From positions 682,001-746,000 of the forward strand of contig JAHLEZ010000001.1 of assembly GCA_020726505.1 (NCBI GenBank): 64,000 nt of DNA, written 5' to 3'. The notes beneath the pieces were generated by a model. The model saw only the letters and a list, made by a program, of their open reading frames with translations, did no database searches and was not told where the DNA came from. Below, piece by piece: positions 2,844 to 49,809 of this stretch (positions within the stretch are counted from its first letter, which is position 1; each line of letters starts with the position of its first letter). The translations under genes and the position numbers were made by a program. Source of the stretch: Leptodontidium sp. MPI-SDFR-AT-0119 (Eukaryota; Ascomycota; Leotiomycetes; Helotiales; Leptodontidiaceae).

Positions 2844-5220
2844 ATGCCAGCCGAGAACCTCCAGAGCAATGGGCGGACTCGCCAGCGGCGAACGAGGGCT
2901 GTCACTTGTTGCCTCGAGTGCAGACGGAGGAAAATCAAATGCGACAAATCCAATCCTTGCTCCCAGTGCTGTGCATACTCGCAGCCTTGCATCTTTCCTG
3001 AGTCGCCAAAACCACCAGTATCGAAGTCACGAGCAAAAGCTCGTCCGAAAGGGACTCCTTCCTCGGCCGAGAGCCTTTCCAAATTGGACCAGAACGTGGA
3101 AAGCGATATTGTCCAGTATGGAGAGAATGAGACTAATCATGGGGAATACGACCATCACACCGAAGATTCTGAGATGGATAGCTCCTTGCAGATCGGGAAA
3201 ATGAGCATTTCGGAGAGGATTGGTGGACTTTTCAGACCTTACTTACTCACAGCAGTAGGTCAGGCCTAAGCCAATTCATTATATGTGACAAGCACTGACA
3301 TCGTTACACAGTTGTCCAAAACCAGTGAAACTAGTCACAACAGTCAACGGTACTTGTCTCAGCCAGGGAGACTTTCATCTGTTAGCTGTGCCTGGCACAA
3401 GCCGAATAGCCTTTGCCCATCTTCCTCTTTTCTCTTCCTCGGCCACGAGACAGACCCAGGAGTTTATCGACTTACCAAACCTCAAGCTGAGCTACTCTAT
3501 TGCCGTAAGTGTTGAAAACCCCCGCTTCACGATTCAGGCACTTTTAGGGTCCACTTATAACACACTGTCCCCTGCGATACTTCAACGAGCGCTAATACTC
3601 TCGATGTTGTCCAGAATATTTTGAAGCCGTCGATGCAGTGGCACACATATTTCACAAACCCACATTCTACACCCCCGAGCAGTTTTTCAATGTGGTCCAG
3701 GCTGGTGATCGTGCATGGAGTACTGATGCAGCAATCGTGTCTTGTGTCTGCTTCGCGGCCGCCGTGAGCTTGGAGAACCTGCAAGTCCAGACTCATTTTC
3801 AGTTTGGAAAACAAATGCTTGTTGACAAGCTCATGAAGAATGCTGAAAAAGCTTTACAAGCAGCACAATTCATGACCACCTCGAAGATCAAGGTTTTGCA
3901 GGCATTCACAGTATATTTAGTAAGTTACCGTCTGCCTGAAATGTCCCAGGTCTGACTTTTGCCCAGATTCCTCAATGCCGTGGCGAGATATCCCGGTCCC
4001 ATTCCGTTCTTGTTGGGGCTTTGGTGAGACTTGCACAGTGTATCAATTGTCACAGGGCAGTCGCAGGGGCTCAGAGCCCACAATCACACACGCAGGCATT
4101 ACTTTGGCATCAAATTCTTTTTCTGGAAATTAGAACGGGGGGTACGCATATTCTTTCTTTGTCTACTCCATGACCTAATCTCCTTCCCACATTTGTGTCT
4201 CAGGATCAAAATCCCAATGTTCGGGATCTTAACGTGAAACCACACTGACATTTCGAATAGAAGCTCAGGGACCATTGCCAACCGAGAGAACCGACGACTT
4301 GCCTTTGCCGCTCAATATCGATGACCTAGGCCCTTTTGGCACTCTTACCTCGGTCCTATCCTGGACCGACAGCACTTTCTCGATAATCCGATACGAATGC
4401 TATGAGATCCATCGCTTTATTTTTCGGGGGCGAGTTGCTCTGGAGCATAACGAGATCACTATTTCCGATCTGCTACACGATGTTGACATGAGAAAGAACA
4501 AATTGTTGGCAAAGTACGATGGTATCCTAGACGACTACGTACCGATTCAACAGTGCGCGAAAACGGTCATGAAGCTTTTGCTTGCTAGATGCGACGGAAT
4601 GACTCTGACCGGTCACTTGCACCGCTTCGAAGATCCAAGCATTCAAGTCCAGATGAAAGCTAGGTAAGTTGCTTTCTGCTATTTTTTTAATCAGCACAAA
4701 ACATACTGACTTGACTTTCAGGTTGCTTAATGCATGCCTTGATGTCTGCGAATGTGGCGCACTGCTGGAACAATCACCAAGTCTCGCAAAGTGGGCATGG
4801 TACTCTGAGACATACCAGCAATATCACAGCGCCATCACGCTGCTGATGGAGATTTGGCACCACCCCAGCTTACCGCAAAGAGATCGAATCTGTTCGATGA
4901 TAGACCATGTATTCGGAGTTCAATATGGCTGGGCAGTCGAGGATCGAGTAATTGATATCCTGCAACTGTTGATGAAAAGCCTCGAAGCATACCTTGATCT
5001 CCGCAAAGTACGGAAACGACAGGCTACACCACCTCTTGCTCCGCCTCTTGGGTCGCAACATGTTTCAGAAGTTTCTGGATGGATGACGGATGAACCTGTC
5101 GCGTCTTGGCAGGATATGCCTCTAATGTCTGAAGAATGGAATTGGGCGTATGGGACTACCGATGATCTTTGGAATACCTCAGTGGTAGCTCTCCCCAACA
5201 TGCCAGCTATGAGTCTTTAA
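2844..5220 (+). CDS. Zn(II)2Cys6 fungal-specific transcription factor
   Basis: Six exons (2844-3254, 3312-3504, 3615-3919, 3967-4141, 4261-4663, 4722-5220) total 1,986 nt, a 661-aa protein with every phase closing. Residues about 22-48 form the binuclear zinc cluster: CLECRRRKIKC, then six-residue-spaced CSQC and a final PC, preceded by basic residues. The middle carries the fungal-specific regulatory domain (Fungal_trans type): HIFHKPTFY, then LVRLAQC, LLWHQILFLEIRT, and the family signature LPLNIDDL near 4310. Such proteins are nuclear and bind CGG half-sites. I chose the ATG at 2844, just upstream of the zinc cluster; an in-frame upstream stretch has no ATG of its own. The C-terminus is Trp/Met-rich and may be an activation region. 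The targets are unknown; the divergent VOC gene is the nearest candidate. Confidence 0.88.
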
Positions 5221-6225
5221 CTACATATATCGCCAACATGCTGTACACCCACTTGCATCAAGACCCCAGTGGAATTCAAGGCCTCCGTCGAATATTTTCA
5301 GCTAGGATTGTGACAGGATGAATTTATCACTGTGAAGCTGGTCAATTTGAGGAAGGGAAATTTTTCGAGAAACAAGTAGGGGATCTTACATCTGTAAGTC
5401 CATGGATTTAATTCGGGTTGCCAGGAGCCTTGGTAGCCGTGAGACGGCGAACGGCTTCTCTCGAAACCACGTCTGCATACGCTACGTAAACCGTTATGGC
5501 GATGCAATTGGGTATGAAGGTTTGTGCCTGCAGATGTGTCATTTTCCACGCAGCTGACAAAGATGCTGACTGCCAAAATGTATTTCTCAATTGGAAGTCA
5601 ATTGGCTTTTAAACCGAGCATGACTATTCTCATCTCTTCGTCGTTCGGGATTACTTGGAATGCTTCGTCACTCTGATTTTCTGTATAACCCTTCAAAGTC
5701 GCTGAGACGTAGGTAAGATATGCTAGGCTTGTACTTCGGAGAATGTACCAATCAACATCATTATTTACTTTTGGGGAAACGAGCTTAAATCCGGGAAAGT
5801 TACGAGCGTTGTTTAGGTCGATCACCAGTACCAATGGTATCGGCATTTGCAGGTAGGGCGGTAGAAACGCTTCGTTGCGACTCCAGCCTTCTTAGACAAA
5901 GCCGGAAGACCAAAGGAGGGAAAGTTTTGCGAGTAACCGAGACAATGCGTTGGTCTAACTATCGTGGGATCAAAAGAAAACTTTTGGACAAGCGTCGGTA
6001 TGCTTAATTAAGCACAACTGCCTCTAGCATTCCCTTCAAATCAGCTTACCTATTGCACTCACCTGCTTATATCGTCTCGTCTAAGATGTCGTAGATTCGC
6101 ACCCAGACTCAGCTAGTAAGTTCCCGGATCTTACGTACAATCAATCCAGTTATAAATTCCAATGGCACCTCCCAATCCAAGGAGAGCTCAGTCAACGCAT
6201 CAACTCTCAGATTCACCTTTCAAAC
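5221..6225. other. Intergenic region, GMC gene promoter
   Basis: One kb between two plus-strand genes. A TATA-like stretch (TATAAATTCC) lies near 6150, about 75 bp before the GMC start. An 82-codon minus-strand frame (5598-5846) begins with ATG but has no recognisable domain; I do not call it. Confidence 0.4.
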
Positions 6226-8378
6226 ATGGGCGACTCTACTTTTGACTATATTATAGTCGGTGGAGGAGTAGCTGGCTGTGTTTTGGCTAGTCGCCTCTCG
6301 TCCTCTTTACCCGACAAGTCGATACTTCTTATTGAAGCTGGCCCTGAAAACGCCGATGGCCGTGTTGCTCCCTCCATAGGAGTTGCGATTTCCGATACTA
6401 CCGATATTCAATGGAATCATAAATCTATTCCGCAGAAAGGACTGGATAATAATATTGTAGGGAGATTTTCCTTCGTGCTCATTATGGCACGATGCCTCTA
6501 ATCTAGTTCTTCAAGTTGCGGCCTTGGAAGCATATGTATATCTTTGTTCTCTGTTAACTTGAGTAGATCAACCAGACACAAGGTAAAGTTTTGGGAGGCT
6601 CCTCTGCGATCAATTATCAGGCATGGACTCGTGGCTCGGCCTCAGAATTGTGAGCTGCTCAATCGCCCAGCTATGTCCACAGCAGCTGACTTGAAAACAG
6701 TGATCGGTGGGCACAAGAAGTAGGCGATAAACGCTGGTCTTGGAATGGACTCTTGCCTTACTTCAAGAGAAGCGAGACTTTCATCCCAGGGAAAGACATG
6801 TCCCAAGAAAAATCCGAAGCTCATGGCTATTCCGGTCCCATCAAGGTGAGGTTGCCACTACCTGTCCAGATATTCGGAACTAATTCCAAGCAGGTGTCGC
6901 ACGTGTCGTCTTCAGGTGGGAATAGAAACTACCCTCTCAAGTCCATGATTGCCGATATCCACGAAGCTGCTGGGCAAAAGCGGAACTATGATATCAACTC
7001 TGGAGAGACCATTGGGTATTCAGAGTTTCCGAATGCTACTTTCAATGGTCGGAGACAATGGGCAGCCATTTATCCTCGTGGTGAGAACGTCACTCTGTGG
7101 GCTTCTACCCAAGCCACAAAGCTACTCTTCTCGAGCATAAAAGTCGCCGGGGTAGAAGTCTTGCGAGATGGTTCCACCACTACTGCCACAGCCCGAAAGG
7201 AAGTAATTGTATCCAGCGGTGCACAGAACTCTCCCAAGCTCCTCCTTCTCAGGCATGGCTCACAATATCCGTCAATCTGACGTCGCTGACAGATTTGCAG
7301 TGGTATCGGTCCTAAATCCGGGCTCCAGCAGCATCAAATCCAACAAATCGCAGAACTTCCAGTCGGGGAGAACTTCTCTGAACATCCCTTCCTTTGTACT
7401 TTCTGGAAAGTACGTGACCGGGGGCTAGCCATCGGTGATATGGAAATGATAACTCCTGAGTGCGACTGGACTGCAGGAACTGGTTGCGATTGGTATGTTC
7501 TCTGTGCCTTGAAAGCTTCAGCAATCTGGGATCTGGGATCTGGGATCTGGGATCGGATCCTATGTTCTGACCCCGATCAATCAAGAACCATCTTTACTGA
7601 TGTCCGTACTAGGTTCGCCTTTCATCGACACGAAGATGAGAGTGTGAAGAAACTAGCAAAGGAGACGCTGGGTAAGAAAGAATTAGAGCGGTTTGAACTT
7701 GCTGGAAGACCGCACACTGAGAGTTTCGCTATGTGGGTCACAAACTTCCATGTACAGAATCGCACTCACCACTTTACTGACATGGTAAATCTTGAATAGG
7801 CACGGCCACCTCGACTTCACGGGTAGAGTTGAAGCACCTCCAGCCGCCTCTTGCTTCTCATTCGCGAGCATCCTCGTAGCGCCAGAATCACGAGGTTCGA
7901 TTCGCCTTGCCTCCTCATCGCCGACTGACCCACCGCTCGTGGATCCTGGTTTATTCACAAACCCCGTGGATTTGAAGCTGATCTATGAGTGTTCCCGCAT
8001 GAGCATCACAGCTATCAAGAATTCATCTGCAGTATCCAAGTATGGCGCGGTGGAATACGGCATAGCTGAGGCAGACCGGGATGACCTCTCAGATGAAGCT
8101 CTCAGGAGGAGACTGGTACAGACGTGTTCGACAGTTTTTCATGGAAGTGGGACTTGTGCGATGGGGACTGTGGTCGATACCGAGTGTCGTGTCTTGGGAC
8201 TCCAAGGGCTAAGGGTTGTTGATGCCTCGATTTTCCCATTTCCTATTGGGTCACACTACCAGGCTGCTGTCTACGGTATCGCTGAGCAGGTACGTATCCA
8301 TATTCTACCCAGCATCCGGTATTAATGGACTAACTTGCGAAGATGTCGGATGTTATTGCGAAGGAAGCGACTTTGTGA
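6226..8378 (+). CDS. GMC-family FAD-dependent oxidoreductase (choline dehydrogenase/aryl-alcohol oxidase type)
   Basis: Eight exons (6226-6456, 6576-6649, 6701-6845, 6894-7252, 7301-7492, 7613-7732, 7800-8289, 8343-8378) sum to 1,647 nt, 548 aa, and all phases agree. The N-terminus has the ADP-binding motif IIVGGGVAGCVLASRL and LLIEAGP; the next exon has GKVLGGSSAINYQAWTRGS (GMC signature 1). Exons 4 and 5 join to make GAQNSPKLLLLSGIGP (signature 2). The C-terminal catalytic region has FHGSGTCAMG (first active-site His) and GSHYQAAVYGIAEQ (second His). GMC enzymes oxidise alcohols or sugars with flavin. There is no signal peptide, so it is probably intracellular. Odd points: the exon 4/5 intron (7253-7300) starts with GC, and the 48-nt intron 6846-6893 is a multiple of three and open, so it could be retained. 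Confidence 0.88.
7524..7554 (+). repeat. 7-bp tandem repeat inside a GMC intron
   Basis: ATCTGGG is repeated four times plus three bases, inside the intron 7493-7612. It is a simple short tandem repeat with no visible function. Confidence 0.9.
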
Positions 8379-23559: not shown

Positions 23560-26500
23560 ATGCGTCTTTTGGAACGCAATAACGATGGCGAGTTCACCCT
23601 TACCAAAGATATCATCGATAACGTTCCCAACTATGCTATACTATCGCACACATGGGGCACGGATACAGAGGAGGTCACCTTCAGAGACTTAACGGATGGC
23701 ACGGGCAAGGACAAGACTGGCTATAGCAAGATCCGATTTTGCGGAGAACAAGCTAGGCTTGATGGCTTACAATACTTTTGGGTGGATACATGCTGTATCG
23801 ACAAGTCAAACAACACCGAGCTTGCAGAGGCTATCAACTCCATGTTCCGCTGGTATTGCCATGCGGCCAAATGCTATGTCTATCTATCAGATGTTCCAAG
23901 GGATACACCTGACGCTATCGAAACGTTCTGCCAGCTGCCCTGGGAATCGGCATTTCGTGAAAGCAGATGGTTCACTCGGGGCTGGACACTTCAAGAGCTC
24001 ATTGCTCCGAAATCAGTTGAGTTCTTCTCCAAATACTGGGAGCTACTAGGTAGCAAGTCATCGTTGGGAACTATTATCCACGAGATAACAGGAATTCCGG
24101 ACAAAGCACTTCGGGGAGTTTCGCTCTCGGATTTCAGCGTAGCCGAGCGAATGTCGTGGGCAGAACGACGTGTGACTACCCGCAAAGAAGACCAGGCGTA
24201 TTCATTACTCGGTATTTTTGATGTGTATATGCCACTGATCTATAGCGAAGGGAAAGAACATGCATTCAAACGACTTCGAGAGGTGATTGATGTGAATTCA
24301 AGGGGTAAATAGGCATTTCGTTTGAGGTTGTGTTTTCGTTTATAAATGCAGGTACTGATCGGCAAGCCAGGGCTCCATTCGGATGTATTTCAACGCCTGC
24401 CGTATGCGCTAGATGCACCATTTAATTCGTTTGCAAATGAAGAGTCATCGTCCACTTGCCTCCCTAATACCCGAAGTGGCCTTCTTGAGGAGATATACAA
24501 CTGGGTTGAAAGTGACGATAAGCGGTGCATCTTCTGGCTGAATGGCTTAGCTGGTACTGGGAAATCGACAATTGCTCGGACCGTCGCCCGCAGATACTTT
24601 GAACAAAAGCGCCTCGGCGCCAGCTTTTTCTTCTCAAGAGGAGGAGGAGATGTCGGTCATGCCGGTAAATTCTTCACGAGCTTTGCCGTGCAGCTTGCGT
24701 ATAATGTACCATCGTTGCGACGATATATTTCGGAGGCCGTGGAAGAACAGATTGATATTGCAAATCACTCCCTTCGCGACCAGTGGCAGCAGCTCGTCCT
24801 CCGTCCACTGTCGAAGCTAGACAGACGCTTTTCTCCGGCTTCCTATTTGCTTATTGTCGATGCCCTCGATGAGTGTGATAATAAAGGCCATATCCGCACA
24901 ATCCTGCAGCTTCTAGCTGAAGTTCGATCGTTGACGACAATACGACTTCGAGTCTTTTTGACGAGCAGACCTGAAATTCCAATTCGACACGGGATATGCG
25001 CCATCCCACAAGCCGAACACCAGGAATTCGTACTCCACAGGATACAACCAGCTGTTGTTAACCATGATATCTCTTTGTTCCTAGAATATAATCTAGGGAT
25101 GATCAGGCAGGAGTGGAGTCTTGGAGCAGACTGGCCAGGCGAAGTAGTTCTGAGACAGCTAGTTCTATACGCTTGTGGCCTCTTCATTTGGGCAGCGACT
25201 GCTTGTCGCTTTATTCGTGAGGGGAGGCGATTCGCAGGCAAGAGACTAGACAAAATTCTCAAGGGTAGTAGCAGCGCTATTACCGCACCAGAGAAGCACC
25301 TCAATGAGATCTACCTTGCTGTCCTCAAGCACTCGATCTCCTTAGACTATTCGGAGGAAGAGAAAGAAGAGGCATGCGATATGTTAAAGCATACGCTTGG
25401 AAGTATAGTAGTTTTGCTCTCACCTCTTTCAACCTCTTCCTTGAGCAGGCTATTACACCTCCAAAAGGAAGATGTCGACCGGACATTTGAAGACCTTTAT
25501 GCGATCCTTGATATTCCAGAGGACCCGACTCACTCGCTCCGCCTGCACCACCCTTCATTCCGCGACTTCTTCCTTAACAAAGATCGATGTGAGGATTTCT
25601 GGGTGGATGAGAAGGAGGCACACCAGATATTAGCTACTGGTTGCATACAATTAATGTCCCAGACACTTAAAAAGGACATTTGCGAAATGTATGCTTCTGG
25701 GAGTCAAGCTAACCAAGTTGAGCGTAGTAGGATTGACAAATGCCTTTCGCCCGAAGTTCAATATGCATGCCTTTACTGGGTTCAGCATCTGCAAAGGTGT
25801 GGTTCTCAGGTTTGTGATGGCAAAGAAACTCACCAGTTTCTACACACTCATTTACTCCACTGGCTTGAGGCGCTTGGCTGGATGAAGAAGGCTTCAGACG
25901 GGATTCAAGCAATATTGTCCTTAGAGGCTCTTGTTTCGGTAAGCTATCTGTCTATTATTTATGGAAGTTTAACTAACTTGTCTTTAGGTTAATAAAAGCC
26001 CTGATTTGTATGCATTCATCCTTGATATGAAGCGATTTGTCTTATGTAATCGATCAGTGATTGAACAAGCACCCCTTCGATTATATTGCTCTGCTCAAAG
26101 GAAGTTCAAGGGCTATATCCCAGATTGGATTCAGATAAAACCAAAAGTACAAGCATACTGGCGTACGGCGCTACAGACGCTCGAGGGCCATACTGGCTTG
26201 GTCAGTTCCGTTGCCTTCTCATCCGACGGTAAGCAGGTCGTCTCTGGCTCAGAGGATAAGACGGTACGGCTCTGGGACGTGGCTACGGGAGCACCGCTAC
26301 AGACGCTTGAGGGCCATACTGGCTGGGTCAGTTCCGTCGCCTTCTCACCCGACGGTAAGCAGGTCGTCTCTGGATCATGGGATAAGACGGTACGGCTCTG
26401 GGACGTAGCCACGGAAGCACTGCTACTGACGCTTGAGGGCCATACCGGCTGGGTTAGATCCGTCGCCTTCTCATCCGACGGTAAGCAGGTCGTATCTGGC

Positions 26501-27052
26501 TCAGACGATAAGACGGTACGGCTCTGGGACGTGGCTACGGGAGCACCGCTACAGACGCTTGAGGGCCATACTGGCTGGGTCGGTTCCGTCGCCTTCTCGC
26601 CCGATAGCAAGCAGGTCGTGTCTAGCGATGAGAAGGTACGACTCTGGGACGCGACCACGGGAGCACTGCTACAAACGCTCGAGGGCCATACTGGCTCGGT
26701 CAGATCCGTCGCTTTCTCACCCGATGGTAAGCAGGTCGTGTCTGGCTCAGAGGATAAGACGATACGGCTCTGGGACGTAACTACGGGAGCACCGCTACAG
26801 ACGCTCGACGGCCATACTGACTGGGTCAGTTCCGTCGCCTTCTCACCGGATAGTAAGCAAATCGTGTCTGGATCAGGCGATGAGACGGTACGGCTTTGGG
26901 ATGCGGTCACGAGAGCACCACTACAGACGCTTGAGGGCCATACTGACTGGGTCAGATCCGTCGCCTTCTCACCCGATAGCAAGCAAGTCGTGTCTGGCTC
27001 ATGGGATAAGACGGTACGGCTCTGGGACGTGGCTACGGGATCACCGCTATAG
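23560..27052 (+). CDS. HET-NACHT-WD40 NLR-like protein (heterokaryon incompatibility / STAND family)
   Basis: Three exons (23560-24304, 24371-25938, 25988-27052) give 1,125 aa with closing phases. Residues 1-245 form a HET effector domain: AILSHTWG, FWVDTCCIDK, RWFTRGWTLQELIAP, ERMSWAERRVTTRKEDQAYSLLG and YSEG. A NACHT NTPase follows with Walker A GLAGTGKST and Walker B LLIVDALDECD, then winged-helix-like and helical parts. The C-terminus has seven WD40 repeats of about 42 residues that are nearly identical. This is the layout of Podospora HET-D/HET-E and the hnwd family: the repeats recognise a partner, the NACHT module oligomerises and HET triggers cell death. Intron 1 can end at two AGs, but only the one at 24369-24370 keeps frame. 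Coding capacity stops at TAG 27050-27052, where an eighth repeat was mutated. Confidence 0.9.
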
Positions 27053-42257: not shown

Positions 42258-42455
42258 TGTCGTGCAGGTTATGGTAGGCCGGCTAAGCGAGCCCAATCAA
42301 AGGCACCATGGCCAAAGCGCCCGCGACCTCCATATTCAGGGAGCTCGAATAGACTATACGTAGACTAATACAACGATCAATTACAGTACTGCGCATACCT
42401 CAATAATACGTTAAATACGCCTCTGTGGAGCCTCTAGGCGTGCTCTTGCACGACA
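42258..42455 (+). repeat. 5' LTR of the young copia element
   Basis: 198 bp, TG..CA ends, identical to the 3' LTR at all but one position. Confidence 0.93.
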
Positions 42456-42467
42456 GTTATGAGCCCC
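42456..42467 (+). promoter_or_regulatory. Primer-binding site, half-tRNA (initiator Met) type
   Basis: GTTATGAGCCC directly after the LTR is the exact complement of GGGCTCATAAC, the anticodon arm of eukaryotic initiator tRNA-Met. This matches the known copia use of a 5' half-tRNA primer rather than the tRNA 3' end. Confidence 0.7.
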
Positions 42468-42507
42468 GTAAGCTATCAAAGCTTCCCAGTCGCATGCACG
42501 CGCCGAC

Positions 42508-44090
42508 GTGGCTCCACAGAGGCATGTAAAGGCTTTCTCACCGCTGCCTCTCACACGTACTAGTAGTATTCAAAAGCCCGTCAACAACCCTCAAACCACC
42601 AAAACCTCTTCGAAATCATCATTTGTATACCCAAAACCGACAATGTTACTTCCAAAGTTACCTGCGGACTGTAATTTGAAGGCGCGGAAGGATTGGGCGA
42701 CATGGCACTTGCGCTTGACATTCCATGCTGGCTTTATAGGTGCACCAAATATAGTAGACCCCAGCGCTCCTGCGACAGGCCATATCCTAAACCACTGACC
42801 TAAGGCTCCAACGCTTGAAAGCACTACGCAAGAGGTTGCAAAGACTCAGTTGAGCTAGTATTACGCTAATGTTACAGCTTAGAAAGCAGCAAACCCACAA
42901 CCGTCTTCAACGCCTGAGTCGTCCGACAACGCGTGGGCTACACCTACCCCAGCCATATCGACAGATGCCCCAATGGGAGGGACAAGTCCAGAAGAAGCTG
43001 GTCCACCTCCATACCCGACGATTGCAGAGGTGCAGCAGATCTACGCAGCACAAGCCAGGGAGTACCAGTACACGCTTGCTGAATAGACGAGCCAAAACAA
43101 CAAGTATATGGCTCTATATAACTGGCTCTCTGAAACGGTGGACGATTCGCTTTTGGACTCTGCGATTAGGGAACTGGCCGGCAAGAGCGACCTGAGCTTA
43201 CAAACGTTGGTTAGTACACTTTAGCGCGACATAGTACCATCAGAATCGTCGGTCCTTACAACGGTGGTCACGGAATACGACAAAGTTTTGAAGGAGGCAC
43301 ATGAGGGAAAAGTCAACGTCAACTAGTGGATGAAGGACTTCTTGAAGGCTTACAGGAATGCTAAAGCGTACGACATACCTGAAGTCAAGGGTACTGTGGC
43401 TCTAAAGAAGTGGTTACGTGCTATGGGAGCTTACATGTACCCTGATTGGGCAAATCCTATCCTCAGCACAGTTATACGCGACGACCAACTTGGAAAAGAG
43501 CATGGTTTTACTCTTGACGACTACATTTAGGTGCTCCCTGGCATAGACCAAGAGCACACCATGTTCAGGAAGCCCAGGCGTCAAGGAGGGGGTGGTGGTC
43601 AATACTCAACCCTTAGAGGAATGGACGATGGTGCGTCGGGCGCAAGCTCCAGCAGATCTCGCTCTCGCGGCCAAGGTAACTTATGCCCATGCGGCATGAA
43701 CAGCAAGCACTTCTTTGAGCCGCTCAAGTGCTGGAGACTACGTTATGTAATTGATGGAACGACCACCGAAGGCATGAAGCATGTGCCAAACGCTGACGAG
43801 GTAACTACAACCCGCAAGAAGTTAGAGACTGTAGACTTCAGGGAGCTCAAGGCCGCTATAGCCAAAGAAGGTTGGAAGTACGTTGCAATAGCCAAAATTA
43901 CTGGAGCCAACAGCACCAGCACCTCTAAACCTACCACTAACGCCAAAACAGCCGATGCCACTGCACTTGCAGGAAACAAAGACAAAGGCAAAGCTACGTG
44001 GGAAGGGACAGGGAGCATTAACGCAGCTATACTTGACCCAAACCTTCTTGACGACATAATCTAGGACGACACTCTTAACGCTGGCATCTA
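42508..44090 (+). pseudogene. copia gag region of the young element
   Basis: One frame is readable with occasional stops (mostly TAG). It includes KDWATWHLRLTFHAGFIGAP near the start, then PTPAISTDAPMGGTSP, WLSETVDDSLLDSAIRELAG, KSDLSLQTLV and KKWLRAMGAYMYPDWANPIL. A region with Arg/Gly (RRQGGGGGQYS) and a cysteine pair (CPCGMNSKHFF..CW) follows near 43690 and may act as the nucleic-acid-binding knuckle. Stops sit where Gln or Trp is expected. Confidence 0.75.
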
Positions 44091-47000
44091 CAGTACCATG
44101 GAGTTCCAACGCCACCCTCTGTCAGACAGCACTCTAGTTGACAACTGCGGCGCAACTCACTTAGTCAACAGCATTAATAAACTAGTCCCCGGCAGCTTCA
44201 AACGCACCACAGGAGAATCAGTTGACGCGGGCACCTCAAACTTACTAATCATTGGGAGAGGTACACGCATCTTTGAAAACGCTATGCATGGACCTGCCGG
44301 ACCGTACACTAGGGACCTGACGCTGTCTAATGTGGCTATTATAGAGGGGTTTAATGTTAACATTATCTCAGAGAGCCTCCTCGCACAGTCGGGGGTGTGG
44401 TATAATGGTGCTGACACGTCTTTGCGCGTAGGTAATGTTGAAGAGAGCCATGTAGTGAGAAACCTACAACGCAGGTGGAACCTTATAGTATTTGAATACA
44501 AGCCAGTTAACAACTGCTCGCGCTCTCCACAACTGCGTGCATTTATGAAGACTCGTAGATCTCCTGCTGTAATGATGTACCCGACAATCAGTAGACGACT
44601 GTACCCTCTCAAAAAGTATACCTTTCAATCATCTTGCCGGTTCTTACGACCCCGGAGCGACACAGTACAGATGTGGCACTTACGGGCTAGTCACCTCGGC
44701 AAAATGGCCCTGGAAGCTCTTGTGAAGCATGCCCGCAATGTCCAAATCGATGGAATCACTGGCATACAATGCGAAAGCTGTGCTGCGACACACTCAAATC
44801 AACGACCATCGCGCAGAGAGTCAGACAACAAGTCCCCGAGACCTTTCTTCAGAGTCGCATGGGACCTGTTTGACTACCCTGTAGGCTACAATGGCACATG
44901 CTGGCTATTGTTGATTAAGGACGAATACAGTGGAAAGCTTTTCGCATTCACACTCACGAGCAAAGCCAACGAGTCAATTATGGGAGTGCTTGAAGCATTT
45001 GAGGCATGGACTAGACGCCAATACGGTCTGGCCATATGCAAAGTCAGGTCCGACAACGACACGTCTGTAATTAACACAAGATACTGGACCCAGTACGACT
45101 AATGGGCGTTAGACAATGGCATCGACCTAGAGCCTACTCCTGTCTACACGCATGAGCCAAATGGAGGCGCAGAAAGAGCTAGTGGGGAGCTAATTGCTAA
45201 GGCCTTGAAAATGATGACAGGCGCCAATCTACCATCCAAGCTGTGGCCGGAGGCTGTTTTGACAGCTGCACACCTTTACAATATGTTGCCACTGGCCAGG
45301 AGAGCCATGCGATCGCCAAACGAAGTGCTAGAGGCATGGTTCAGGCAGTATTTTCGGTGGTACGATCCACACATGGTGAAGAGGTTGTTAGTCGATTTGA
45401 GACCTAACTGGAGTAACATTTTTGCGTATGGCGCCAAAGCCTACGCGATAATCAAAGACCGACAAGCTCTCCGTGACAAGAGAGGCTTTAAGGTCAACCC
45501 AAGGGGGCACGTCGGTTACCTGGTTGGCTACTGTGCAACCAACATATACAGGATCTGGATACCCCTGCTGAAGCGTGTAATACGTACCCGAAACGTTGTT
45601 TTTAATGAGGCACAGTTCTACAGCAAGCAAGCAGTGGTCGGCCAACCACTGCCGATACTCAAACAGGTCGTTGATATGCTTGCGGAGCCTGAGGCCGCTT
45701 GGGACGCCGAGTTAGCCATCGAACACGTAGGGGACGAGCATACGGAGGCGAAAAACAGTGCTAAATTGGACAAGCTACTGTCTGACCCAATAGAAGTCGA
45801 CGAAGTTTCTACGGAGGTAGTCCTGCACGCAACTACTGAGGCGGGACTGCCTGTTCTACGAGAGCACTAGAATGAGATGGTACCGTTAGATTCACGAATT
45901 GACACGTCGGAGGACGACATGGAGCTTGACGAGGACGACACAGCAATTCTGGCAACAACAAAAAGCCTAAGCACACTAAGACAGACTCGAAGCCAGACAT
46001 AACGAAACGAACATATCGAGCCTGGGAGGAGTGCCCCAAGTGCGAAACTACCACGCCAGATTGAGGGTGCGCGCAAATCAATACCTTAAGTTGTAATTTG
46101 GAGTGGAGCACGAGACAGCCAGAGTCAACTACTGCGCCAAACTGAAGCAACCAGTGCAGGCCCAGGAAGTGCACTGCAGCACGAAAACACCTCGTCCGAG
46201 GAGGATTACGACGACGAGCCAGAGGGAGAACAACAACTACTCCTAGAAAACACACCGTTAGAGACAATAACACAACCCCTGTTGAAAGAAACCATGTCTC
46301 AAGAGACCTTAGACGAAGTGTTACAGGCACCTAACCAAAGTCAACTGCACCTTGTCACTCGAGCTCAGCGGAGAAGGCGAGCTAGAGAGACAATACAGTT
46401 GAATAGACGGTCAAAGATTAGGCCGGGAGTATACTCCTTCACGACAAGGGAGCTCCTAAGCGCCGAGTCCATGGACCAAAAAGACAAGAACTATACGCAA
46501 ATCGCATCCTTTACCACGACGTTCTGGAATGAAGACGTGACGCGACAAGATGGTAAAGACCATAGAACTGTGTATGCTGTCTTTGTAGCTGTAGTCAGTG
46601 GCGAAACGATCAGAGCACAGGAAACTGCAAGCTCTGAAACAACACAACTACATTAGGCAAAGCTTCCGACAGCACTAAAGTACTGGCAGAACCTAGACTA
46701 GTACTCGTGGGGAGAACGCTTCCGAGAGGACGCACGCAAGGAGATAGAGAACCTCTAGGCTAGGAAATGCTGGCATATCGTGCCTAGGGCAGACGCTAAA
46801 ACGACGCCTATACCACTGAAATGGGTGTTTACCTATAAAGTTAACTCAGTTGGACAGCTTGTACGCACCAAATCGCGTATCGTTGCTAGGGGTGACCTGC
46901 AGGAGGATGCCACTATATTCTCCACGTACGCCTCCACACTAGCGGCGAGGTCTTTTCGTGTTGCGATGGCCCTGGCAGCCTAATTTGACCTGGAAGTTAA

Positions 47001-48250
47001 GCAGTACGACGTCGTGAACGCTTTTGTTAATGCAGAACGAGACGAACGAAGTGCACCCGTCTACTGTTACCTTCCTGACGGTTTTAAGTAGCCCGGCATA
47101 GTTGTAGAGATCGACAGAGCCCTGTATGGCCTACGCGACTCCCCAGCCCTATGGTATGGCGACTTCTCAGCTACACTCAAAAGCCTCGGCCTAGAGCCAC
47201 TTGCAGAAGAGCCCTGCATATTTACAAACAACAAGCGCACAGTGTTTGTGGCCTTCTACGTGGACGACATATAAGTGCTGTACCACAAGTTAAACCTCGC
47301 TGTAGCGGCCAAAATCACCGATGGCCTTAATAAAGCTTACGAGCTGACTGTAATGGGTGACGTGGAGTGGTTTTTAGGGGTGCGAATTGTACGGGACAGA
47401 CATGCGAAAACAGTCACGTTAGTCCACGACACGTATATAGAGAAGGTGGCCCGGAAATTCAGCTTAGTAGATGGCAACTGCCCGAGCACCCCTCTACCGT
47501 ACTACGACCTAGTCAAAAACACCGGCAAAGCGACGAAGGCACAAATCAAGGAGTACTAAGAAAAGGTCGGATCCGTCCTGTACACGGCTGTCATGATCAG
47601 ACCGGACGTAGCTTTTGCAGCTTCACAGCTGTCGCAATTTTTGACGAACCCAAGCCAGAAGCACCTACAGGCTGTCGATTGGACGATACGTTACCTGTTT
47701 GGTACACGCTTCTTAGGGATCGTTTACAGCTGTCAACAGCGCGAAACGCAGCTTGTAATAGCGTCTAATGCCTCTTTCGCAGATAATTTGGAAACTAGGC
47801 GTTCTTCACAAGGGCTCATCATTCTTTTGTTCGGGGGGTGCTATACTGTGGAAAGCATCTAGGCAGGACACAGTCACCACCTCGACTACAGAAGCCGAGC
47901 TCTTGGGGGTAGAGCGAACTGCAAAGGAGGTTATGGCACTATAGAGGCTCTTTAGAGAAATGCACCTTAATGTGGGGTGCCCCTGGAACATCTTCTGTGA
48001 CAACTAATAGACGATTAGGCTCATAGTTGGAGAGAACCAGCGTATATCGACTAAGCTTAGGCACGTTGATATTCAGAATATGTGGCTACGCCAGGAGCAC
48101 TAAAAGGGCAGTTTTGAGGTTATATACTTGCCCACAAGTGAGATGTACGCTGATGGCCTCACTAAAAACCTCCCACGCTAGAAGTTTGAGACCTTCTTAG
48201 CACTACTTAACCTACAAGATGCTAGGGCGTCGGTAGAAGAGCTCAATTAA
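44091..48250 (+). pseudogene. copia pol region: protease, integrase, RT, RNase H (young element)
   Basis: Protease: STLVDNCGATHLVNS (D-x-C-G-A-T-H in place of DSGA). Integrase: LRASHLGKMALEALVKHA, CESCAATHSN (zinc HHCC part), WDLFDYPVGYNG and EPNGGAERASGELIA (catalytic E); then GHVGYLVGYCATNIYRIWIP, typical of copia. RT: PLKWVFTYKVNSVGQLVRTK, SRIVARGDLQED, DVVNAFVNAERDE, ALYGLRDSPALWY and VAFYVDDI (catalytic YVDD). RNase H: TVTTSTTEAELLGVERTAKE and LPTSEMYADGLTK. About twenty stops interrupt it, mostly TAG, and a one-base shift occurs in a G run near 47830, so this copy cannot make an intact Pol. Confidence 0.88.
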
Positions 48251-48526
48251 AGCTTGCACTTTACTGCAAAACACACTCTTTTGTTTTCCTTTGTAATTTT
48301 CAAGGTGGCACAGTCACTTCAAGCATAATCTTTTCAAGATGTCAGGGGCAGGAATTCTATTCCGGCCGAAGCCACAATCAAACTAACCTAAACTAAACCA
48401 AATAGACCCGAACCACAACCAGACCAACGCAAAAACAAGTACATGAGGGCCCGTTCCCAAGCTGCTTATAAGGTCGCAAACCATACTCTGAAGGGCCACG
48501 TTCCCAAGCCGCTATCAAGTCGCGAA

Positions 48527-49378
48527 CTAAACTACTAACAAGTCCACCAGCTCCACCAGCAACTCCTTGATACGGCGGCGGCGGGCAGCCACATCACCAG
48601 CGACAGCACCAGCACCAACACCACGCACAGGTGGGAGGATTAGGCGGGGGGTGGCTGGGGCTAGGGTGGCGGCGGCGGCTAAGCCAAAGTCAGTACGTTT
48701 AAAGCCTGTTTGCAAAGACAAGGTGAACATACTGGGTGGTGCAGCAGCTAGAGCGGCAGCTGGGGCGGCGGCTGAGCCTGTCAGTACACTTGAAGTATGT
48801 TTTTGCAAAGGCAAAGTGAATATACCGGGGGCAGCAATTGCTTCTCGGACCGAAGCCCGGAGACGTCTCAACTGCTATTTAGAGTTAGCTAGCTTCAAAA
48901 ACACAAGAGCTAAAGTGAAACTTACACGAGTGCGGTTGGAACCGCGCTTCTCCTCCACAAAGGCCGCAAAGGCGACCGCAACACTAGGCCCAACAGGACC
49001 GGCACAACTATGATTCTGACCGTGGCACCACAGGCACCGCACCGAGCCAACTGCGCTTTGGTAGATGCTAACAAGGAGATCACCCTTCAAGGCAGCTTTT
49101 ACGCATGCCAGGCAGGGAACCTCCCTATCAGCACCTGCCTCAGCGCGACGGCGAGGGGTGGCTGGGGCGGGGGCGGGGGCGGGGGCGGGGGCGGGGGCGG
49201 GGGCGGGGGCGGGCGAGGGGGTGCGGGGGCGAGCCGCAAGCTATTACAACATGTTAAAACCATTCTCAAAAGAACAAAGAGTACAAGGGAAACTTACACT
49301 TCTTGCTGCACGAGCAGCGGCGGCGTTGGCAGCGCGGGCGGCTTTGGTGGCCTTTCGGCGGGACGAAACACGAGCCAT
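48527..49378 (-). CDS. Intron-containing antisense accessory gene of the young copia element (novel Cys-motif protein)
   Basis: This gene lies between pol and the 3' LTR, on the opposite strand to pol. Exons 49378-49298, 49240-48926, 48874-48826, 48777-48733 and 48678-48527 join to 642 nt (213 aa). All four introns (57, 51, 48 and 54 nt) have GT-AG ends with strong donors (GTAAGT, GTAAGT, GTATAT, GTATGT), and phases match. Without introns 1 and 2 the frame would meet stops. The N-terminus is basic/Ala-rich (MARVSSRRKATKAARAANAA). A Pro-Ala tract follows, then C-L-A-C, 22 residues, C-L-W-C, HGQNHS and a final C: C-x2-C-x22-C-x2-C-x6-C, a likely zinc site. An Ala-rich part and a charged end (RRRRIKELLVELVDLL) close it. 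No stops interrupt it, unlike pol. Role unknown; nucleic-acid binding is a guess. Confidence 0.68.
49155..49214 (+). repeat. GGGGGC tandem repeat (Pro-Ala coding on the minus strand)
   Basis: About nine copies of GGGGGC in exon 2 of the antisense gene, where the minus strand encodes a (Pro-Ala)n tract. On the pol-sense strand it is G-rich and could fold as a G-quadruplex in the 3' region of the retroelement RNA. Confidence 0.85.
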
Positions 49379-49611
49379 TTTGAAGTATAGTACGCTTGAA
49401 GAGGGAAGTTACGATGGGGGGGCACCTGCCTATATACTCACGCCTACTTGTTTGGCATGTTTGCTTTGGCTACTGCTTATCATTTTTCCTTACTGTCTGT
49501 CGCTTTCATATTGTCAGTTATATATTATATGTCGATTTCCTATTGTCTATCATGTTTGTTAAGCACTTGTTTGCTTCGCTAAAGCTTAGTATTGTCCTTG
49601 GCGAGGGGGTG

Positions 49612-49809
49612 TGTCGTGCAGGTTATGGTAGGCCGGCTAAGCGAGCCCAATCAAAGGCACCATGGCCAAAGCGCCCGCGACCTCCATATTCAGGGAGCTC
49701 GAATAGACTATACGTAGACTAATACAACGATCAATTACAGTACTGCGCATACCTCAATAATACGTCAAATACGCCTCTGTGGAGCCTCTAGGCGTGCTCT
49801 TGCACGACA
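49612..49809 (+). repeat. 3' LTR of the young copia element
   Basis: 198 bp; differs from the 5' LTR at a single base. Confidence 0.93.

Follow-up and report, generated by a model that had tools for sequence, protein, structure and literature searches.

A probable intron-bearing antisense accessory gene in a fungal copia retrotransposon

A copia retrotransposon in the genome of Leptodontidium sp. MPI-SDFR-AT-0119 very probably carries, opposite gag-pol, a real antisense accessory gene that is spliced and maintained by selection. The window analyzed here is a 64,000-nucleotide stretch of contig JAHLEZ010000001.1, taken from a 77-Mb assembly of 69 contigs. Exons on its minus strand (49378-48527), located between pol and the 3' LTR, together form an open frame. 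An earlier note, made from the sequence of the window, had read this frame as a real accessory gene of the element, possibly nucleic-acid binding, or as an antisense regulator of copy number; our comparison of genomic copies favors the gene, in that the frame appears protein coding and intron bearing, homologues lie antisense to pol, and the core bears the marks of selection. Antisense genes between pol and the 3' LTR are already known from plant Ty3/gypsy elements and from the fungal Boty gene brtn. What appears to be new is the copia host, the presence of several conserved introns, and the protein itself.

RESULTS

The host element

The element in the window is a Ty1/copia LTR retrotransposon with the following parts.

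42258..49809, plus strand: whole copia element, 7,552 bp (7.55 kb), delimited by the LTR pair and TSD and containing RVT_2 pieces
AATAC: TSD, flanking both ends of the copia element at 42258..49809
42258..42455, plus strand: 5' LTR, 198 bp, TGTCGTGCA...TGCACGACA
42457..48250, plus strand: gag-pol, broken, ends approximate
49600..49611, plus strand: purine-rich tract adjoining the 3' LTR, seen in the sequence and similar in copies, which we take to be the probable PPT
49612..49809, plus strand: 3' LTR, 198 bp, recognized from the LTR pair and LTR ends

The two LTRs show one difference across 198 bp. The plus-strand frame matches RVT_2 in three separate pieces (one above the cutoff and two below) and, upstream of RVT_2, gives weak matches to gag_pre-integrs and rve; the element is therefore a copia element, with integrase before RT. 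Its gag-pol contains 21 in-frame stops between 42457 and 47846, with a frame change near 47846. At the stop positions, CAA, CAG, or TGG is read in 18 of 21 cases in the related copy L023 and in 15 of 21 in L021, and this pairing, Trp included, is a signature of RIP. An alternative genetic code (TAR as Gln) was rejected as the source of the stops, since they face CAA, CAG, and TGG as RIP predicts; in a check of the genetic code, five of seven tubulin rows of the genome had no internal stop, one had TAG, and one had TGA. Across pol (window 42456-48279), the window copy and L021 differ at 166 sites, all transitions, with C-to-T changes at CA mostly in the window and G-to-A changes at TG mostly in L021, as if RIP had hit opposite strands in the two copies.

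Elsewhere in the window, adjacent open frames with nearly identical WD40 repeats (23560-27052) presumably represent a HET-NACHT-WD40 (NOD-like receptor) gene. Two frames at 6753-8325, which we take to resemble pieces of a GMC oxidoreductase, are either a broken gene or one with introns.

Model of the antisense gene

The gene model for the window copy is as follows, in the direction of antisense reading.

49431..49436, minus strand: TATATA, probable antisense promoter box, present in 34/34 copies with letters there
49298..49378, minus strand: exon 1, ATG at 49378, basic and Ala rich
49241..49297, minus strand: intron 1, 57 nt, in-frame stops
48926..49240, minus strand: exon 2, Pro/Ala repeat followed by the conserved core
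49004..49114, minus strand: cysteine motif, five cysteines in the window and six in intact copies
48872..48925, minus strand: intron 2, 54 nt (51 also possible), CTAAC branch-like site, in-frame stop
48826..48871, minus strand: exon 3
48772..48825, minus strand: intron 3, 54 nt in the revised reading
48733..48771, minus strand: exon 4
48679..48732, minus strand: intron 4, 54 nt, similar to intron 3
48527..48678, minus strand: exon 5, stop at 48529-48527, C terminus VAARRRRIKELLVELVDLLVV

The coordinates, the minus strand, the four GT-AG introns with matching phases, and the in-frame stops of introns 1 and 2 given by the earlier note are all present in the sequence. Its third intron (48778-48825, 48 nt, giving a range of 48 to 57 nt) was wrong in detail. 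Intron 3 more likely ends at 48772 and spans 54 nt, because a branch-like CTGAC lies only 2 nt ahead of the AG chosen earlier and because the alignment column of that AG reads CG or CA in 17 of 35 copies (AG or AA in the other 18); the 17 belong mostly to subfamily C, with a modeled acceptor further on. The frame had been given as 213 amino acids; the earlier junctions yield 212 amino acids plus the stop, i.e., 213 codons, and the revised intron 3 would yield a protein of 210 amino acids.

Copies in the genome

A genome search with 1,101 bases returned 79 matching rows at about 40 places, a lower bound, as 40 of 54 candidates were scored. Forty sequences were extracted, including the window, and 35 were aligned; L033, L035, L039, L053, and L056, being truncated or interrupted, were left out, and L059 coincides with the second copy in L029. 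The aligned copies fall into subfamilies A (including the window), B, and C, in which intron 1 measures 57, 57, and 105 nt, respectively. By the models made here, subfamily A has four introns and subfamilies B and C have three; L040 fits all three subfamily gene models poorly.

The antisense gene is intact (start, splice sites, phase, and no stop) in 6 of 35 copies, namely, the window, L021, L023, L032, L041, and L042, while the remaining 29 have acquired stops or have lost the start, splice sites, or the frame. The window, L021, L023, L041, L042, and L045 have low RIP indices, L031 and L032 intermediate ones, and the others higher ones. The contrast drawn earlier between a stop-free antisense frame and a broken pol thus holds for the window copy but not for the family, since only those six alignable copies are fully intact: most copies are broken by RIP in the antisense gene too, and the lack of stops is particular to the window copy. 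Random frame damage in homologues had been named as evidence against a gene. Most homologues are indeed broken, but mainly by G-to-A and C-to-T changes, and the spliced length stays divisible by three in 31 of 35 copies (the exceptions being L045, L047, L051, and L057).

Homologues antisense to pol in other copies of the element, another check suggested at the outset, were found in 19 of 20 long loci, 15 of which cover at least 99% of the 5,824-bp pol query; two of the 19 include short stretches of pol (54 bases in L036, at a contig end, and 506 bases in L039). L033 contains a second element that confuses the strand call of pol. In the five short loci whose ends were inspected, the antisense gene adjoins an LTR. 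Most copies of the family therefore have an additional ORF that is placed between pol and the 3' LTR and oriented antisense.

Several loci have histories of their own. L041 and L042 are identical across 1,274 bases of the antisense region but have different flanks and diverge at three LTR sites and, beyond that region, in the direction of pol; they are therefore separate insertions, and the identical region amid a differing LTR and pol side could reflect gene conversion or recombination. L045 is not RIPed, yet its antisense gene has a frameshift and is missing part of the core; its sequence towards pol departs from the family, and it is possibly a nonautonomous derivative. L029 holds two antisense-region copies (591-1899 and 4493-5778, subfamilies A and C) in the same orientation with starts 3.9 kb apart, which suggests nested or clustered insertions.

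A second, distant copia family

Five further places in the genome match the core at 28 to 37% (HMMER E values of 4e-6, 5e-5, 2e-4, 0.23, and 0.39). A tblastn search with the core found one of the five; the others rest on HMMER and mutual likeness, with L063 to L066 being 84 to 88% alike in DNA to L062. Between L062 and the window DNA, a 17-base LTR junction is the sole match at E below 1e-3. On the other strand of L062, the RNase H end is 61% identical over 77 residues to that of the window element. By eye, L062 shows the TATATATA stretch, an Ala-rich exon 1, GTAAGT, and CTAAC/AG signals, and its core has Cys or Tyr at matching places. The copies of this second family look RIPed. Judged from these likenesses, a distant copia family has a related predicted antisense gene. 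As a separate observation, the stretch separating the antisense stop from pol (window 48443-48526) contains two occurrences of a motif like CTTGGGAACGTGGCC, and a related motif (CTTAAGAACGT..CC) occurs three times in L062 (1394-1552); found in both, the motif is therefore conserved across the families.

These distributions bear on whether a host gene was captured by one element lineage and is carried as a passenger. A captured genomic gene would be expected to bring introns and a TATA-like box, as seen here. Such a gene would hardly be expected in three subfamilies and also in a copia family distant from them, nor lying opposite pol in 19 of the 20 long loci and adjoining an LTR in five short ones, and we regard capture as unlikely; this comparison covers the places inspected, with 12 of 61 HMMER rows falling outside them and L063 to L066 being too short for LTR or pol.

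Introns, splicing signals, and promoter box

Splice dinucleotides are kept, among 35 copies, in 33 at donor 1, 29 at acceptor 1, 31 at donor 2, 26 at acceptor 2, and 28 at donor 3, and every loss at these five sites is G to A, as RIP makes. The fourth acceptor of L023 reads CG in the column model owing to a 3-base insertion; its own TTAG is present. Intron lengths are 57/54/54/54 in the window, 57/55/52/54 in L023, and 105/54/55 in L041. Although the lengths of 55 and 52 (L023) and 55 (L041) are not divisible by three, after splicing the copies still end, in frame, in an identical run of 21 residues. When the window, L021, L023, and L041 are compared, indels in exons come in multiples of three, whereas most of those in introns do not, a pattern broken by L045 with a 13-base difference; however, the exon indels lie largely within 3- and 6-base repeats, so that divisibility by three follows partly from the repeat unit and the point is weakened. 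Introns 1 to 3 differ between L023 and L041 at 40 of 155 aligned sites (~26%).

Aligned with each other, introns 3 and 4 of the window score 64, against a best of 29 among 1,000 shuffles; one is therefore probably a copy of the other, and intron gain by tandem duplication inside the retroelement (window 48679-48825) is possible. The TATATA box lies ~52 nt before the ATG. As it contains no target for RIP, finding it unchanged in RIPed copies means less than it might seem to and is supportive rather than proof. The data fit the earlier argument that introns on the antisense strand outlast passage through RNA: as reverse complements in the sense genomic RNA, they would not be spliced and would therefore pass through reverse transcription intact.

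Coding constraint

The core of exon 2 (76 codons) was tested for dN/dS. Against L041, the ratio was 0.20 for L023 (Fisher P = 4.5e-5), 0.19 for L021 (P = 8.4e-6), and 0.23 for the window (P = 4.6e-5), the three pairs having L041 in common and thus not being independent. In the two remaining antisense frames, the ratio was 1.1 to 1.7. One sense frame gave 0.25 to 0.37 yet has three to four stop codons, its low ratio arising because its wobble positions coincide with those of the antisense frame. Comparing L023 with RIPed L031 gave a ratio of 1.78 for the correct frame but 0.16 for a different one, from which it follows that RIP bias alone can yield a low dN/dS.

Because RIP bias can mislead dN/dS, we employed a matched simulation on the core, in which the observed changes were placed randomly on matching bases and contexts (5,000 draws). 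Fewer codons were changed than expected for L023-L041 (8 observed versus 16.3 expected; P = 0.0002), L021-L041 (10 versus 20.8; 0 of 5,000 draws), window-L041 (13 versus 22.6; P = 0.0002), and L041-L045 (0 versus 3.7; P = 0.0016). RIPed controls gave 18 versus 21.5 for L023-L028 (P = 0.08), 23 versus 24.7 for L041-L048 (P = 0.28), and 27 versus 26.5 for L041-L055 (P = 0.67). Exon 1 shows only weak constraint between subfamilies in the matched simulation (P = 0.025 to 0.062), and the C terminus hardly varies, leaving too few changes for a test in two of three pairs. Whole-frame dN/dS was 0.35 to 0.51 between subfamily C and the others and 0.19 to 0.73 across all 21 pairs. By the same method, clean-versus-RIPed comparisons gave 0.52 (8 copies, subfamily A) and 0.73 (11 copies, subfamily C; L043, 0.17), so the whole-frame ratio alone is unconvincing, and the matched core simulation took its place. 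Analysis of dN/dS among copies, as the earlier note had proposed, thus gave 0.19 to 0.23 in the core, and the simulation agrees. On these comparisons, the protein core is under purifying selection, and the antisense frame is more than chance.

The same results weigh on a reading in which the antisense RNA, not a protein, matters, pairing with the genomic RNA and limiting copy number as in Ty1, with the frame incidental. Passages of PMC12786077 describe Ty1 antisense RNAs that reduce transposition, and a TATA-like box is present here. Against this, constraint follows codons: introns 1 to 3 differ at 40 of 155 sites, and the core changes half the expected codons. We consider this reading marginally less probable than capture of a host gene. 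A chance open frame in GC-rich repeats opposite an untranslated region is highly improbable, for although the Pro/Ala repeats are open in several frames and the core can be read through in sense frame 0 as well, the idea is contradicted by the matched simulation with its RIPed controls and by the conservation of splice signals and the branch site.

The predicted protein

The predicted protein has a basic, Ala-rich N terminus, a Pro/Ala stretch, a cysteine core, and the C terminus VAARRRRIKELLVELVDLLVV. Un-RIPed copies of subfamilies A and C are ~81% identical; relative to L021, identity is 96% for L023, 94% for the window, and 81% for L041. In intact copies, the core reads RRRAEAGADREVPCxACVKAALKGDLPVSICQ...RCLRCHxQNHGC. 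The motif first described, C-x2-C-x22-C-x2-C-x6-C, is present in the window as a degraded form, with Tyr at the third cysteine position, of the six-cysteine motif C-x2-C-x13-C-x8-C-x2-C-x6-C seen in the four other intact copies compared, L021, L023, L041, and L042.

A Pfam search of the predicted protein gave no family above the cutoff. Fungal Zn(2)-Cys(6) clusters have the spacing C-x2-C-x6-C-x5-12-C-x2-C-x6-8-C. The present motif shares their six cysteines and agrees in spacing after the third; its first loop has 13 residues rather than 6, and two of the proteins gave no PF00172 match at E up to 10 (HMMER filters drop most weak matches). The motif is reminiscent of this class but does not match it. 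Among solved structures there was no convincing match, the best (E = 0.13) being a cytochrome c that we take as chance. A search of viral contigs gave 116 pattern matches, of which none was confirmed.

DISCUSSION

HTLV-1 HBZ, which has a spliced form and encodes a bZIP protein, resembles the present gene in being an antisense accessory gene and differs in belonging to a retrovirus, in its 3' LTR promoter, and in its type of protein. Passages of PMC11963269 describe the HBZ protein as nuclear and important to the virus cycle, and those of PMC7264820 place the HTLV antisense promoter in the 3' LTR. Among retrotransposons, the Boty-like elements of Botrytis cinerea are described, in passages of PMC7264820, PMC8365987, and PMC4227169, as gypsy elements with a chromodomain and an antisense gene, brtn. 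Like the present element, Boty comes from a filamentous ascomycete and carries an extra antisense gene in the interval from pol to the 3' LTR; the present element is copia (RVT_2), and the two are likened by position. Grande gene23, RIRE2, and Retand TRP28 likewise lie antisense between pol and the 3' LTR, but in gypsy elements of plants rather than a copia element of a fungus; according to passages of PMC7264820 and PMC11963269, the Grande gene has its own promoter and a nuclear protein, and DNA binding is predicted for Retand. The word "intron" is absent from the main texts of these two papers, which is no proof that those genes are intronless. Bdelloid rotifer ORF3 genes, separate transcription units expressed from spliced messages in passages of PMC5408684, share with the present gene an extra ORF with introns; in those passages they are not placed antisense to pol, and the proteins are different. 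Among the matches listed from the open-licence literature, titles and abstract starts gave no copia element with an antisense gene and no antisense retrotransposon gene with introns. A 2020 review (PMC7264820) states that the function of antisense genes at this position is unknown and that spliced antisense transcripts should be sought.

For the gene described here, we propose that it would be read from its own promoter, with an mRNA starting just upstream of the ATG and running towards pol, and be spliced by the host. The product would be a basic, Ala/Pro-rich protein of ~200 to 210 amino acids, its six-cysteine core probably binding zinc and its C terminus forming a basic, leucine-rich helix. 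It would act in the nucleus on element DNA or chromatin, as a regulator or as a helper of import or integration; from its composition and the plant parallels, we lean slightly towards a nuclear protein that works on nucleic acid. A fuller account is offered tentatively, at a little below even confidence: a multi-exon antisense gene predating the split of two distant copia families would encode a new six-cysteine nuclear protein needed by the element, its introns would be sheltered by their strand, and subfamily A would have gained an intron by tandem duplication.

A retroelement would be expected to lose its introns through reverse transcription; here, three or four persist on the other strand, their number differs between subfamilies, and the protein core is under selection. 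The family, whose copies range widely in their state of decay, provides a fungal test case for antisense genes.
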